DNA from: Neoarius graeffei
Taxonomy: Eukaryota; Chordata; Actinopteri; Siluriformes; Ariidae
Assembly: GCF_027579695.1 (NCBI RefSeq)
Contig: NC_083571.1
Span: 89,687,888 to 89,751,887, forward strand
Direction of reading: 5' to 3'
Length of the DNA: 64,000 nucleotides
Part shown: piece by piece, positions 28,018 to 33,987 of the stretch
How the letters are laid out: each line of letters begins with the position of its first letter
Position numbering within the stretch: position 1 is the first letter of the stretch
The notes under the pieces: model-generated
Database searches by the model: none
Told to the model about the DNA's origin: nothing
What the model saw: only the letters and a program-made list of their open reading frames with translations
Program-made: the position numbers and the translations under genes

Positions 28018-28288
28018 GAACCAAACAAAATCTTCCCATAAACCAGTTACGAGGATAACCAAACAAAAATCTTCCCGTAAACCAATTACGAGGATAACCA
28101 AACAAAAATCTTCCCGTAAACCAATTACGAGGATAACCAAACAAAAATCTTCCCATAAACCAATTACAAGGATAACCAAACAAAAATCTTCCCGTAAACC
28201 AATTACGAGGATAACCAAACAAAAGTCTTCCCGTAAACCAATTATGAGGATAACCAAACAAAAAATCTTCCCGTAAACCAATTACGAG
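28018..28288 (+). repeat. 39-bp minisatellite, left part
   Basis: About six to seven tandem units of 39 bp. As the unit is a multiple of three, both strands stay open; the plus-strand reading is (KPITRITKQKSSR)n, which is incidental. The array resumes after the transposon at 33941-33987, so the transposon landed inside it. Confidence 0.95.
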
Positions 28289-28372
28289 GGTCCGTGTACG
28301 TCGCGGCCATCCGATTACGGTTTTGATTTAGAAAAATAAAAAACAGAAAACAGCCTGTATTTCATTTTTTTA
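28289..28372 (+). repeat. Left terminal inverted repeat of the 5.65-kb transposon
   Basis: Matches the inverse of 33857-33940. Inside it, and just beyond, a phrase like ACAGAAAACAGCCTGTAT recurs with changes (GAAAACGGAAGACGACTTAT), so the transposase-binding region may contain repeated sites. Confidence 0.92.
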
Positions 28373-28645
28373 TTTAAATCAGTACACAGAAAACGGAAGA
28401 CGACTTATATCCTGTTGTTCTACTTAAAATAAAAAAAAAAATAGGAAATGACTCTTCACTTGACTTTCTGTGCAGTGTAAATAATGGTAATTTGAAATTG
28501 AGAAAAAATTCCATTCCCGATTTTACTACCTAAAGGCCTTTCTTAATGACCCGGAAGCTGTGCTCTCCGCGAGCTACTCGCGACGAGAGATATTTGTAGG
28601 CATTGTTCAGACCCGTGTATGTGTAGTTGTGGCAGGTAGGCTACT

Positions 28646-30943
28646 ATGAACAGCTACGTTTTGTTCAAGGGCGCAAAGCGACTGGCCGTAAAGGAGGAGG
28701 ACATGACCGTGGCAAAGATTGGAAGGATTTTCCAGGTGCTAAGAATTTGCAGTTTAGAAAATAGTAGGCCCGCTATAACAACTAGATTGCTAGTCATCGG
28801 CTCTGTCACGCCAATAAGCAAAAAGTATCACTATCCCCACCACCACGACTTTCTCAGTTATGGCAGCTATAATTATGTAATACCGTGTGTTACATGGGCA
28901 TCAGACGACACATTTCTGTTTAATTTGTCCTAAAACTTTCTTTTCTTACGTGCCTATTGCAACCCGGCTAGCCAGCCAACTAGCAAGAAGTGTTATAAAA
29001 CCGTCCATATGTCCATTAAAATAACCTCAGTCATTCAGTGCAAACTTATTGGCTAATACACAGGCGTTTTAATATTGCATTGCCATATTTGGTGTATTTT
29101 TCAGGACATGAAATGGTTTCCCCAAACTTCAGATCACCAGTTAAGAGCAGCTCACAAAACATGTAGGCTAAATGATGTTGGCTGCTCAGTGGGATGGTGG
29201 TGGTCGTCTATGTGCACGTGGGGGGATAAAGTGAAGACGGTGGTGTATTAGCAAGAGAGGACAGAAAGAGGAGATGGTGATGTGTGATGGGAGCGTGGAA
29301 TTAGGTGGATAGCCTAAAAATCTTAACCATGCTCATTGCTTCTAATTTTGTTCAACTCCACAGATCACTGGGGATTCCCTATATCTGACGGATGATTCCA
29401 ATACGGCCCTATTCCCAGAAGACACTGGGTATTTTTCAACATTGACTCTGGTAAGCCGTGGACACTACGAGGTGCATGGCGACCCCGAGCAAAACGCCGC
29501 ACACAATGCTCCTACATGCTCTACACCTTTTGCATTTAGGCGGCTAGCCTCTTTCTCCTCCTCATCTTCCTCCTCCTCTCCCAGTCCGTCAAATATACGA
29601 CAGGGACCAATGGGAAGAACATTTCAAAGGTGAGCTACCTAATATCTACTGCTAAATAAAACACACACACACGTATAGGTGTGTGTGTCTCCATGATGAC
29701 GCCACTGAGCACATGGATGTTAGACACCTTGTGCTCCTCTACCTTCTGCTGGAGGATGCCTTACAGGTGCACATTTGAGTTTAGGGGTGCAGTCACTTCT
29801 GTGAGATACTGAAGGTGCGTGTGTGTGTTTGTTACTGATATTTCAGCTGTCGAAGTAGGAAACATGAGCAACTGAATGTGTTTTTGTTTTATCTTCAGGT
29901 CAGTACACTTTGCTGATGTTGTTGACAACCGGCTGACAACCTCACGCACACTTGTGAATAGATTCACTGAGGCTGAAGCCACACTACAAGGCATCTCAAA
30001 CAAAGTGAAAGAAGCCCTTGGCACTGATGACCCAATCACCCTCACTGACTCTCAGGGGAACAAGATTATGGATTCCGAAGGCACAAGAAGTAATTATCTA
30101 ACCTTAGCTTGCTGTTTTTGAATTAAGACTGATGTTGTTTTTGTTATATGTTATATATTATGTTGATATGTTGTGATATGTACTCTGACTTTTAAGCTTC
30201 CCACTACTGGAAACAAAATTCAAGGAAGATTTATGCCTTGATGGATGAGGACTTCCAGGAGTTCCAGTCAGGGCGAAGATCAAGAACTAGGTAATACAAA
30301 ATGACGTAAAGCAATTGCCAAAGTGGAAAAAGCTTTTCACTCCTTTGTTGAATAATGTATAGAACTAGCTCATTTTTTTCTGTACATTTAAGTCGCAGGG
30401 TTGAGGATAGCTTTCCAGTCCAGCAAACACTGGACCAACTACAAGAAATTAGAGACAACATAACCCGGCTGTCAGAGGTGGTCAAGACTACGACTACAGC
30501 AGCTCTGACGACTGCTGCCCTGAAGCCAGCAATGGAAGGTGTATCCTGCCTTGTTTGTAAAGGTATGAAACTACACAGCATGGACATGCTGCTGATCCAT
30601 TCTCTGTAATTAAAAGTGCAAAGCAGAGGGGTGATTCATTGTGTGTAAATTGGTGAATATGAGGGGTGTTGGTGAAGCACTTATGACTTCTCATTTAGAG
30701 GGTAAAACAAATTATAACTATAATTCATTTACCATTATTACATAGTTTTCTCTTCTTTGATATTTTGCAGATATAATGGATAGACCCGTCTTTGCAACCT
30801 GTTGCAGGTCTCTTGTTGGGTGTTGGACCTGTGTGGAGCAGTGGCTGCTTACCTCTGAGCACTGCCTGAAATGCAGAGCTGAAGCTTTTAGTGAAAATAT
30901 ACATGAGACACTGGGTCTCTCTGCAGTGATTGTTATTTTTTAA
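28646..30943 (+). CDS. Six-exon RING-finger protein carried by the transposon
   Basis: Predicted exons: 28646-28735, 29364-29629, 29899-30089, 30197-30290, 30393-30562, 30771-30943. All introns have GT...AG ends, and the joined length is 984 bases, giving 327 residues with no internal stop. It starts MNSYVLFKGAKRLAVKEEDM and continues SLYLTDDSNTALFPEDTGYF, then a Ser-rich linker, a middle domain (EALGTDDPITLTDSQGNKIM, YWKQNSRKIYALMDEDFQEF) and a helical stretch. The C-terminus is a RING-like zinc finger CLVCKDIMDRPVFATCCRSL with VGCWTC and HCLKC, spacing C-x2-C-x11-CC-x5-C-x2-C-x10-C-x2-C. RING fingers usually recruit ubiquitin-conjugating enzymes; the target here is unknown. I remember similar multi-copy fish proteins with no known function. 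An AATAAA lies at 30998. The weakest donor is exon 1 (CAG|GTGCTA). Confidence 0.75.
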
Positions 30944-30997
30944 GACTGCAGAGGCCTAATTTTGTGAGCTGCTACTGGCCTCTTACTTTTCGTTCTT

Positions 30998-31003
30998 AAT
31001 AAA
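30998..31003 (+). terminator. Poly(A) signal of the RING gene
   Basis: AATAAA 55 bases after the stop codon, followed by a T-rich stretch. A second AATAAA lies near 31070. Confidence 0.55.
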
Positions 31004-31272
31004 TGTTTATTTTTGGACATCGTTGTTTGCACTGTTCAGAGTACAGAGGCCTAAACTAGAGTGGTTACTGAATAAAACAATTAATTCATATAAAATGCAT
31101 ATTTCCTTTGGCCTTTGATAAAAATGTTTATTTCTGAGCATCATTGTTTGGATTGTGCATCTTTCATAAGAACCTTCTGCTCAACCATCAAAGACATGGT
31201 AAATGGCAAGACAAAGCAGTGTATTACAATCCTGAAATTGCAGGACTAATGTTAAGGAAACAAACATTACTC

Positions 31273-33573
31273 TTAAGCAGCATGTTGTCTAGTGATATCA
31301 ATAAGACACCTAAGTGCATTCTGAAATGGGCTAAAATTGTTGTTGACTGCACTGTGCAAAAGTGACAAGGGATCAAAGTGTGATGCAAACTCGCTTTCAG
31401 CATTTCTGCGGGCTTCCTCATTGGAAAAAGGGTCTGTGCCAAACACAGCTTCTCTGGAGTTAGTGCTGTCCCCACTTCCTGCTGGTAGAGGTCTGCTGCA
31501 ATTTCACCAATAGGTAGATTGTCTTCCAAGACCTTTGCTGGGCATCCTTGACCACAGAGGAGATTTGGTATCCCCTTTCCTGTTAAAAATAAGGGCTTGA
31601 TATGTAGCTATACATGCTTACTGACAAAAACAAAATAAATAAAAATGTAAGCAATGCAAGTACCTGGAATTCTGTGGGCATTCCATGCTTTCACAAAATT
31701 TGTGAGGCCAATTCGGGATATGTGACATGTTAGGTTGGATGTGCAGAATTTTGTCAAGCTGTCATCCAAACAAATTTCCTCCTGGTCACACATCTGAACA
31801 AGCGCAGTCTTCAGGGGAAAATTTACCCTTTGATTTACTTCTAACCACATCCTTTCAATTGTATGATTCTGTGCAGATGAAAAGATTATGAGGATAGTGT
31901 CATGCTACAGGCCCCCAGCACAGCAAGCATTAATTAGATTGATGTGTGTGATTTGTTTTACCCTGGTCGATGGTGTTTGAAGGTATGGCTGCCTTTCCTT
32001 GTTGTGGCTTCTCCTGGACAAATAAGATCAAGAAAAACTCCCTTCCACAGTCTACACGCACTTGGTCCCATATCCTGTAGGACATCACAGCTGGCCTGAA
32101 AACAATACATAAACATGTGGAAAATGTCAAGCTTAAATAGAATTACTAACGAATACATTGAACAGCTAACATCTATAATGGTGATCCTCTCAAGAAAGGG
32201 GGGCATATTATTTTCTTTCTTACCTGTACACTTCATCATAAATTATAATGTTGTTTTTGATGGGCATTGTTGAATGCCCAACAATCTTCTTACTGTACCC
32301 ATCAATAGCCATGACATGGGTCACTCCAAACATGACCAATTTTTCATTTTGGTCAATGTGTAACTTGTGACCCACATATTCAGCATTGTAAGGCACTGGG
32401 TTAAGGTTTCCGGCACCCTATAGTAAAATAAATAAATAGATAATAAATAAAAACTGTCTCTCATTGGTATGCACACCTTTTCAATACCTTTTCAACAAGC
32501 CTATGTATGATGAGACATTGTATTTGGCCTTACTTGCTGTCTTGCTGCATGGTATGGTGGGTTAACTGTTTGTAGGACTTTGCCCACTCTGCCCTCTGAA
32601 GCTTTGACCCCTTTTGCAGCAAGATAGGCAGTCACCATTTTTCTTCCGTAGTACGACCCAGTCTGAGAAAGGAATTTTATGTTTTGATGCATTTATCATG
32701 ATGCATTTATCATTATTAAGATTAATTCATGCCCCCCCCCCCCCACACACACACAAGGCCTTCTCCTTGACTCCCTCTTCCTGCATGACCCCTAGCTGGC
32801 AGTTAACTGGGTTGACTCTTTGAGCCAGGGATCTGCCCAAGGTTTCTTCTGCTCGAATTTTAACTGCCCCCCTCACCCCCCAAGCAAGCCACATAGGCTC
32901 GCTCGTGCCCTTTGTTCACATCATTCATCGCCTTTACATCGTCCACCACCACCACCCCCACCACCCTCAGTGCAGCCCAATTTCACTGCATTTTTTACAC
33001 TCAGTAATTATGTATGTTACAGAAAATTCCCTTGTATGGCCTACAAGGTGTGTTGTGTGTTGAGAAGATGAGATACTCTGCATATGCACAATCATGTGTC
33101 AACTATGCAACTGTGCAGCATACTAAAGTAATTCTAGCCTACTGACAAAAGAATAGTATAAGCGTAGAACCAGGGCTCTGGTAGACCATCAACCATCTTT
33201 GGTTGACTTTTTTTCAATGAGGGGCACTTCCAGCTGCAGTGTGTTTATCGTTGCCATGGCAACCATAATAAGGGCATGTCAAAGATACAGCGCTACGCGA
33301 TCTTTTGGAATACCGGAACATAAAACATTTTTATTCACACTGTGACAAACACCACACCTCTTCAGTAGCTTTCGCCACTTCACTTTCCAATTGCCTGTCA
33401 GGGCAGAAATCCTTTGCGCCAAGTCCTTGCTCTGTGCACCACCGCCATACATTCCTCTCTGAAAATCCTCTTAAAGAACCAAAGTGACCCGTCAGTGCTG
33501 CAGCAATATCGGCACATGCCATCCCACTTAATCTCTTGTGTTTTATAAAATCCGAGTACTGATCTAAAGACAT
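31273..33573 (-). pseudogene. Spliced rve/DDE integrase-type transposase, decayed
   Basis: Predicted exons, 5' to 3' on minus: 33573-33358 (72 codons, MSLDQYSDFIKHKRLSGMAC..., a helix-turn-helix-like DNA-binding head), 32662-32534 (GRKMVTAYLAAKGVKASEGR), 32417-32224 (HKLHIDQNEKLVMFGVTHVM, MAIDGYSKKIVGH), 32095-31962 (WDQVRVDCGREFFL), 31868-31664 (NHTIERMWLEVNQRVNFPLK, WNAHRIP) and 31579-31273. The Asp of HIDQNEK, the Asp of VRVDCGREF and the Glu of TIERMW fit the D,D,E triad of the rve integrase fold. Introns have GT...AG ends and phases agree except for about two frame breaks in the later exons, so this copy is probably inactive. From memory, near relatives are fish proteins annotated as integrase-core proteins. 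Confidence 0.75.
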
Positions 33574-33856
33574 TTTGGATCTAACAGTTGGCTACATACA
33601 AATGTCTTCTCCGTAGAGGTGGTATTCTCAGGTTTTGTGGAGCTCGCAGAAAAGCACAACTTCCGGGTCATTGCAAAAAGTCCTCAAGGCAAACTCGGGA
33701 ATGGAAGAAGCAATGTTTTTTTCTCAAGTCCAAATTTCCTTTTTTCCACACCACCCAAAGTCAAGTAAAGAGCCTTTTCATGTTTATGTTTTTTTAGATT
33801 TTAAGAAGAACAACAAAATATAAGTCTATTCCAACTTTCTGTTCATTGATTTTAAA

Positions 33857-33940
33857 ACGAAAAATGAAATACAGGTCGTTTTCTATTTTTTATTTTTCTA
33901 AATCAAAACCGTAATCGGATGGCCGCGACGTACACGGACC
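33857..33940 (-). repeat. Right terminal inverted repeat of the 5.65-kb transposon
   Basis: Inverse of 28289-28372, ending GGCCGCGACGTACACGGACC. The integrase start codon lies about 280 bases inside, so its promoter is probably between. Confidence 0.92.
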
Positions 33941-33987
33941 TACGAGGATAACTGAACAAAATCTTCCCGTAAACCAATTACAAGGAT
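33941..33987 (+). repeat. 39-bp minisatellite, right part
   Basis: Begins with the TACGAG duplicate and continues with just over one unit of the array interrupted at 28288. Confidence 0.9.

Follow-up and report, generated by a model that had tools for sequence, protein, structure and literature searches.

Among described DNA transposons, those of the IS3EU and GingerRoot kind come nearest to the element that we report here, a 5,652-bp transposon at positions 28289-33940 of a 64,000-nucleotide stretch of the Neoarius graeffei genome (contig NC_083571.1; hereafter 'the window', meaning the whole stretch analysed), which carries a transposase gene and, facing it, a gene for a RING-finger protein. 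The element resembles IS3EU and GingerRoot in having an integrase-core transposase without an HHCC zinc finger, terminal inverted repeats (TIRs), and a 6-bp target-site duplication (TSD). It is set apart from IS3EU by its termini: complete IS3EU families are described as always having TA..TA ends, and GingerRoot as mostly having them, at times with TG..CA instead (PMC10045372), whereas the element ends in GGTCC..GGACC in the families checked. Because the termini fail the TA..TA rule, membership of IS3EU is not claimed. The partner gene also differs, being of a RING or a HECT ligase type here. An extra gene in opposite orientation is not in itself unique to this element, because fungal TET-positive IS3EU elements carry an alpha-kinase gene opposite in orientation to the transposase (PMC12730594). 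The words 'RING' and 'ubiquitin' are absent from the main text of that paper, as are 'RING' and 'zinc finger' from the main text of PMC10045372.

Ginger1 and Ginger2 (TDD) likewise have an integrase-type transposase. They differ in their TGTNR ends, a 4-bp TSD (Ginger1), and an H2C2 zinc finger, whereas our element has GGTCC ends and no zinc-finger match in its transposase. The Ginger authors noted OTU and Ulp1 proteases in some transposons, Helitrons included, and proposed an involvement of the ubiquitin pathway in transposition (PMC2836005); the enzymes under discussion there are proteases and not ligases. RING fingers have been linked to transposase-type enzymes in Chapaev and in RAG1, a transposon-derived recombinase whose RING has ligase activity (PMC4411706), but in both the RING forms part of an unrelated transposase by fusion, and here it is encoded by a separate gene. 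A statement of 2015 held that a RING is encoded in no known transposable element apart from the Chapaev/Transib group (PMC4411706). As a general rule this is too strong, because retroelement proteins with RINGs have been reported (PMC3630058) and a C3HC4 ring finger is ascribed to one Mutator-like element (PMC6446971). A study of fish repeats includes an unclassified candidate element that matches the HECT ligase G2E3 (PMC5638112). In the titles, abstract starts, and passages covered by our literature search, no description of a transposon paired with a RING or HECT ligase gene was found; a Repbase entry may hold the element.

The limits of the element in the window are as follows.

28283..28288, no strand: left TSD, TACGAG; the neighbouring minisatellite units represent the empty site
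28289..28378, + strand: left TIR, starting GGTCCGTGTACG, 90 nucleotides (nt), 93% complementary to the right TIR
33851..33940, - strand: right TIR, ending ..CGGACC, 90 nt, 93% complementary to the left TIR
33941..33946, no strand: right TSD, TACGAG, matching the left duplication

An earlier note, made from the letters of this DNA alone, had described a cut-and-paste type of element with inverted ends of about 84 bp, TACGAG duplicated on both sides, and two convergent multi-exon genes, one for an rve-type D,D,E transposase and one for a RING-like protein. This observation of a complete two-gene TIR transposon is confirmed, with the RING gene on the + strand and the transposase gene on the - strand, each modelled with six exons; the size of the inverted ends is amended to 90 nt. 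Because the element sits inside a 39-bp minisatellite (28019-28289, 6.9 copies, resuming past the transposon's right end), the adjacent uninterrupted units show the target as it was before insertion.

The exon borders of both genes are predictions, based on splice signals and on the exon-sized blocks that correspond to them in three further families of the element. Those of the RING gene, open for 327 codons to its stop in the window, are the following.

28646..28735, + strand: exon 1, first half of the N-terminal domain; homologous block in families B, C, and D
29364..29629, + strand: exon 2; blocks matched in other families
29899..30089, + strand: exon 3, probable beta-grasp (ubiquitin/PB1/CIDE-N-like) domain, from weak scores
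30197..30290, + strand: exon 4; blocks matched in other families
30393..30562, + strand: exon 5, ending with the first C-x2-C of the RING; blocks matched in other families
30771..30943, + strand: exon 6, the other six cysteines of a C4C4-type RING and the stop; blocks matched in other families

The transposase gene is read from the other strand.

33358..33573, - strand: exon 1, N-terminal head; blocks matched in other families
32534..32662, - strand: exon 2, weak HTH_21 match below the cut-off; blocks matched in other families
32224..32417, - strand: exon 3, first D (HIDQNEKL); blocks matched in other families
31962..32095, - strand: exon 4, second D (VRVDCGREF), with a 14-bp deletion by comparison with five long sister copies
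31664..31868, - strand: exon 5, catalytic E (NHTIER); blocks matched in other families
31224..31579, - strand: exon 6 of the model, 3' end uncertain

The window transposase matches the Pfam integrase-core model rva_4 (PF24764) above the cut-off (E-value 4.9e-14), with matches below the cut-off to HTH_21 (0.0015) and, weakly, to an IS3 model (1e-3). No HHCC N-terminal zinc finger was seen by eye in the translation of exons 1-2, and there is no Pfam zinc-finger match. The D, D, and E residues align across families, save that the second D is replaced by N in one B copy. The assignment to D,D,E integrases stands for the gene, but the window copy is itself broken by a frameshift: its exon 4 lacks 14 bp that all five long sister copies have, and the window frame, read with the GT donor of that exon, meets a stop at codon 229, ahead of the catalytic E. 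In all five of those sister copies, the transposase is open for 398 codons. A profile search of the PDB with the transposase gave no usable relative, and an exon-3 transposase alignment run against viral contigs gave 37 pattern matches and no relative. An AlphaFold model of the transposase core, built on a two-row alignment, was discarded (predicted local distance difference test score, pLDDT, 31.6).

Further copies were sought in the genome to which the window belongs (2.34 Gb in 38 contigs, cited below by labels such as C5; all match counts are lower bounds). The left end gave 14 matches, which resolve into six long copies of the window's own family, here called A (the window included), and one copy of 638 bp on C24. 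All six long copies carry both genes and are collinear save for insertions and small gaps; the C24 copy, an internally deleted remnant, is the sole A copy found without the RING gene, and none of the long copies found has the integrase alone. Target duplications flank all seven A copies, being of 6 bp in six (TACGAG, GATCTG, TTTGAT, GTCCGT, GTTTTG, and CTCACA) and of 7 bp in one, on C3 (CTGAGGG). Both genes are open over the compared stretch in four of the six long copies (C13, C5, C22, and C1), the RING gene showing no stop there within the 330 codons compared. The RING coding exons (963 nt compared) are identical in the C5, C22, and C1 copies, each of which lies at a different target, and movement of family A has therefore been recent. 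The second C3 copy (L009, G000:C3:42688744-42698743) reaches 10.7 kb owing to some 5 kb inserted between exons 5 and 6 of the RING gene, which is also broken.

The pairing of the two genes extends well beyond family A. Genome searches with each of the two proteins gave 112 and 104 matches, of which 57 and 79, respectively, were used for typing; grouped by place, with gaps under 12 kb, the typed matches form 41 clusters, 28 with both genes, eight with the transposase only, and five with the RING gene only. The two genes are convergent in all 28 paired clusters. The RING gene is thus not one that exists mainly outside such elements, since 28 of the 33 RING loci found, across several diverged families, adjoin a transposase of this type. 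Among the eight transposase-only clusters are the short C24 copy, one at C4:34.96 Mb, one on C16 in which a diverged RING gene below the threshold was seen by reading the DNA, and five (on C2, C6, twice on C9, and at C4:27.6 Mb) that belong to a set with a HECT gene, treated below. The loci were grouped loosely into families A (the window), B, C, D, D', and E, and matching exon-sized blocks are found in both genes in A, B (L076), C (L080/L081), and D (L077).

Between these families, both genes have been kept as proteins, since non-synonymous differences lie well below synonymous ones. A comparison of exon 3 of the RING gene over five families gives 0.60-0.91 synonymous differences per site, which is near saturation, and 0.21-0.40 non-synonymous ones; the corresponding ranges for exon 3 of the transposase are 0.64-1.05 and 0.13-0.19. 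The RING gene might nevertheless be a passenger, that is, a captured fragment of a host gene that hitch-hikes without function. Host gene capture is common among transposons, five of the 33 RING loci have no transposase match, and a silent excess is lacking in the RING gene within family A. The exon blocks and eight cysteines, however, are kept across families that differ by 45-58% in protein and are near saturation at silent sites, and 28 of the 33 RING loci have the transposase beside them. On account of these pairing counts and of the conservation between families, we regard a passenger, or a chance neighbour, as very improbable.

Divergence is quicker in the RING protein than in the transposase. 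In comparisons within the set of A, B, C, D, and D', the protein differences are 45-58% for the former and 31-38% for the latter (0.45-0.58 versus 0.31-0.38 over the five families), rising in comparisons with E to 74-76% and 50-53%, respectively; D' is represented in the RING comparison by two exon pieces only. The two tables of distances correlate (Mantel r 0.97, 3/720 permutations; 0.62, 3/120 without E), and B groups with D' in both protein trees, at support values of 0.96 and 0.29. Joint descent of the two genes accordingly has modest support from these comparisons, modest because six families are few.

As to the nature of the second protein, the RING-like finger of the earlier note is borne out. 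Eight cysteines in RING-like order are invariant in all five families compared, with the spacing C-X2-C-X11/12-C-C-X-[S/N/Q]-X3-C-X2-C-X10-C-X2-C, and a five-family profile run against the PDB finds as its best match the RING of RBBP6 (2yur, 3.1e-7), followed by those of RNF8, BRCA1, and RNF4. RBBP6, a host protein of DWNN-knuckle-RING layout, has a RING of similar spacing (C-X2-C-X11-CC-X-[NS]-X2-C-X2-C-X12-C-X2-C) and also a ubiquitin-like domain, to which the putative beta-grasp domain of the element protein may correspond. It differs in that none of the five element proteins scanned has a match to a CCHC zinc knuckle and that their N-terminal parts have no sequence match to DWNN. The starting domain, which the earlier note could not name, has been placed in part: exon 3 probably encodes a beta-grasp domain, and the part from exons 1-2 is without assignment. 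Searches of the PDB with profiles of the N-terminal domain and of the exon-3 domain gave no usable relative, and hhalign, run on the two N-terminal parts against each other, returned a probability of 0.9%, which does not show a relation.

The finger could instead be a structural zinc-binding module, serving in dimerisation or in contact with DNA or nucleosomes, and the protein would then be a transpososome accessory subunit that lacks ligase activity. Consistent with this are the missing histidine ligand and an N-terminal domain without assignment. Yet RBBP6 has nearly the same pattern, its RING being described as C4C4 or C3NC4, and CNOT4, of the C4C4 type, is an active ligase (PMC1360078). 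The absence of the histidine is therefore no argument by itself against a working RING, and a reading as a pseudo-RING on that ground is weakened by the RBBP6 pattern. A further point against a purely structural role is that a HECT ligase gene occupies the same position beside related transposases, which points to ubiquitin transfer itself. We consider the structural reading quite improbable.

This second class of ligase gene was found at L083 (G000:C9:32421000-32427500), one of the loci typed as transposase-only, where a HECT exon (Pfam HECT, 3.6e-11) lies convergent with a transposase that matches rva_4 strongly (3.8e-71). Searched against the genome, that exon matched 35 times, at 33 loci, 22 of which lie within 8 kb of an rva_4 match, all 22 convergent. 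When the set was enlarged by 66 Pfam HECT matches that reach the end of the domain, 79 loci resulted; 35 of these are paired with rva_4 within 8 kb, again all in convergent orientation, whereas random placement would be expected to give about 0.0008 pairs per locus. Of 117 rva_4 matches examined, 35 have a HECT partner, and among the 23 best the partner is present in 21. The first 860 bp of L083 recur in inverted orientation 10-12 kb further on C9, C6, and C2, with a shorter part at a second C9 locus, so that at these four related loci the HECT-bearing elements, too, seem to have long inverted ends. Many further rva_4 matches, open frames of about 304 residues among them, lack a HECT gene within 8 kb.

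That related elements have in one and the same place either a RING or a HECT ligase gene suggests that protein tagging helps the elements to move or to survive. With two unrelated ligase folds standing there, it is arguably the transfer of ubiquitin as such that is useful. The explanation we prefer, to which we give about an even chance, is that of a two-gene rva_4 cut-and-paste transposon whose RING E3 ligase helps transposition in trans, most likely by ubiquitinating some protein of the host by which the element is restrained or repaired. Transposases of the rve fold excise their elements at the TIRs, and the staggered joining that follows yields a 6-bp duplication. By analogy, the D,D,E transposase would bind the GGTCCGTG.. 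inverted ends, cut the element out, and join it to targets staggered by 6 bp. The second gene would supply a RING-type E3 ubiquitin ligase, with its probable beta-grasp domain and C4C4 RING in a layout somewhat like that of RBBP6; this ligase may be needed for movement, acting on a host factor of silencing, restriction, or repair. A broader proposal, to which we give a somewhat lower chance, is that ubiquitin ligation is a built-in helper of a whole class of integrase-type transposons, separate lineages of which carry RING or HECT; two unrelated folds would have been recruited to one job, probably the removal of a host barrier or the release of the transposition complex.

Our preference for a host target rests on the higher rate of divergence of the RING protein relative to the transposase, which is what one might see in a protein that faces the host. 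The serious rival is the element's own complex: the RING protein could act on the transposase of its own element, limiting its level or dismantling the strand-transfer complex after integration. RAG1, with a transposon ancestry and a RING active as a ligase (PMC4411706), offers a parallel, the two genes diverge roughly in step, and they face each other in every paired locus counted (28/28 with RING, 35/35 with HECT). Such self-regulation sits less well with the faster divergence of the RING gene, and a convergent pair within one element would co-diverge even if its products never met; we think it unlikely on balance, though less so than a structural role.

Against a host-directed RING ligase that aids transposition, a number of findings must be weighed. 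All the evidence comes from one genome, and faster divergence of the RING protein would also be expected from weaker constraint. Within family A (C3b left out), copies that differ in the RING gene do so at two silent and 6-10 replacement positions, and with no silent excess, selection on this gene is not visible at the scale of recent copies; over 537 nt of the transposase, the corresponding figures are 4-6 silent and 4-7 replacement (window, C13, and the group of C5, C22, and C1). The RING gene of the long C3b copy is broken, since codon 12 is a stop and exon 2 is frameshifted. Taken alone, the window RING protein falls below the Pfam RING cut-off (zf-C3HC4_3, 7e-4), and the canonical histidine of C3HC4 is replaced in the five families by S, N, S, S, and Q. 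Resolution of the trees is poor: the sole grouping common to both is that of B and D', and E is placed beside A in one (0.04) and beside C in the other (0.70). The partnership of HECT with rva_4 is not universal, since no HECT was detected within 8 kb of 82 of the 117 examined rva_4 matches, nor an examined rva_4 match within that distance of 44 of the 79 HECT loci, host HECT genes presumably being among these 44. Lastly, among five copies of families B, C, and D checked for a TSD, it is absent in two and one base off in a third: the C copy has CTCCAC on both sides, one of three B copies has GTGTAT on both sides, another has CAAAAT with one extra base, and the third has none, and the D copy shows no clear duplication.

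If the preferred explanation is true, a role of the ubiquitin pathway in transposition, of the sort raised for Ginger (PMC2836005), becomes testable; mobile elements would come equipped with a ligase-like gene of either of two unrelated kinds, and from the substrate of the ligase one could be led to a host factor by which integrase-type transposition is limited or completed. Such elements would also be a possible source of some of the repeated RING- and HECT-type 'genes', as may be compared with the fish repeat matching G2E3 (PMC5638112).

The ends of the other families were compared with those of A. The termini GGTCCGTG..CACGGACC are shared by A, B (L076), and C (L080-L082), and the left end of the D family is (G)GTCCGTGTATG. 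In L076 (G000:C8:63358000-63366600), the B copy without a duplication, the left flank resembles the target of the copy at C5:11991632 and the right flank that of the copy at C8:41911145, a pattern that recombination between two insertions, or their movement as one composite, might leave. The left-flank target of the B copy at G000:C5:11991632 in turn resembles a repeat just outside the D-family end in L078 (GAATGATACACGGATTGTGTAT), perhaps a nested element. For family E, only the right end was seen, the left end of the element on C16 not having been found; beside that element, L016:1-453 holds a frame that, by eye, is like a reverse transcriptase/RNase H.

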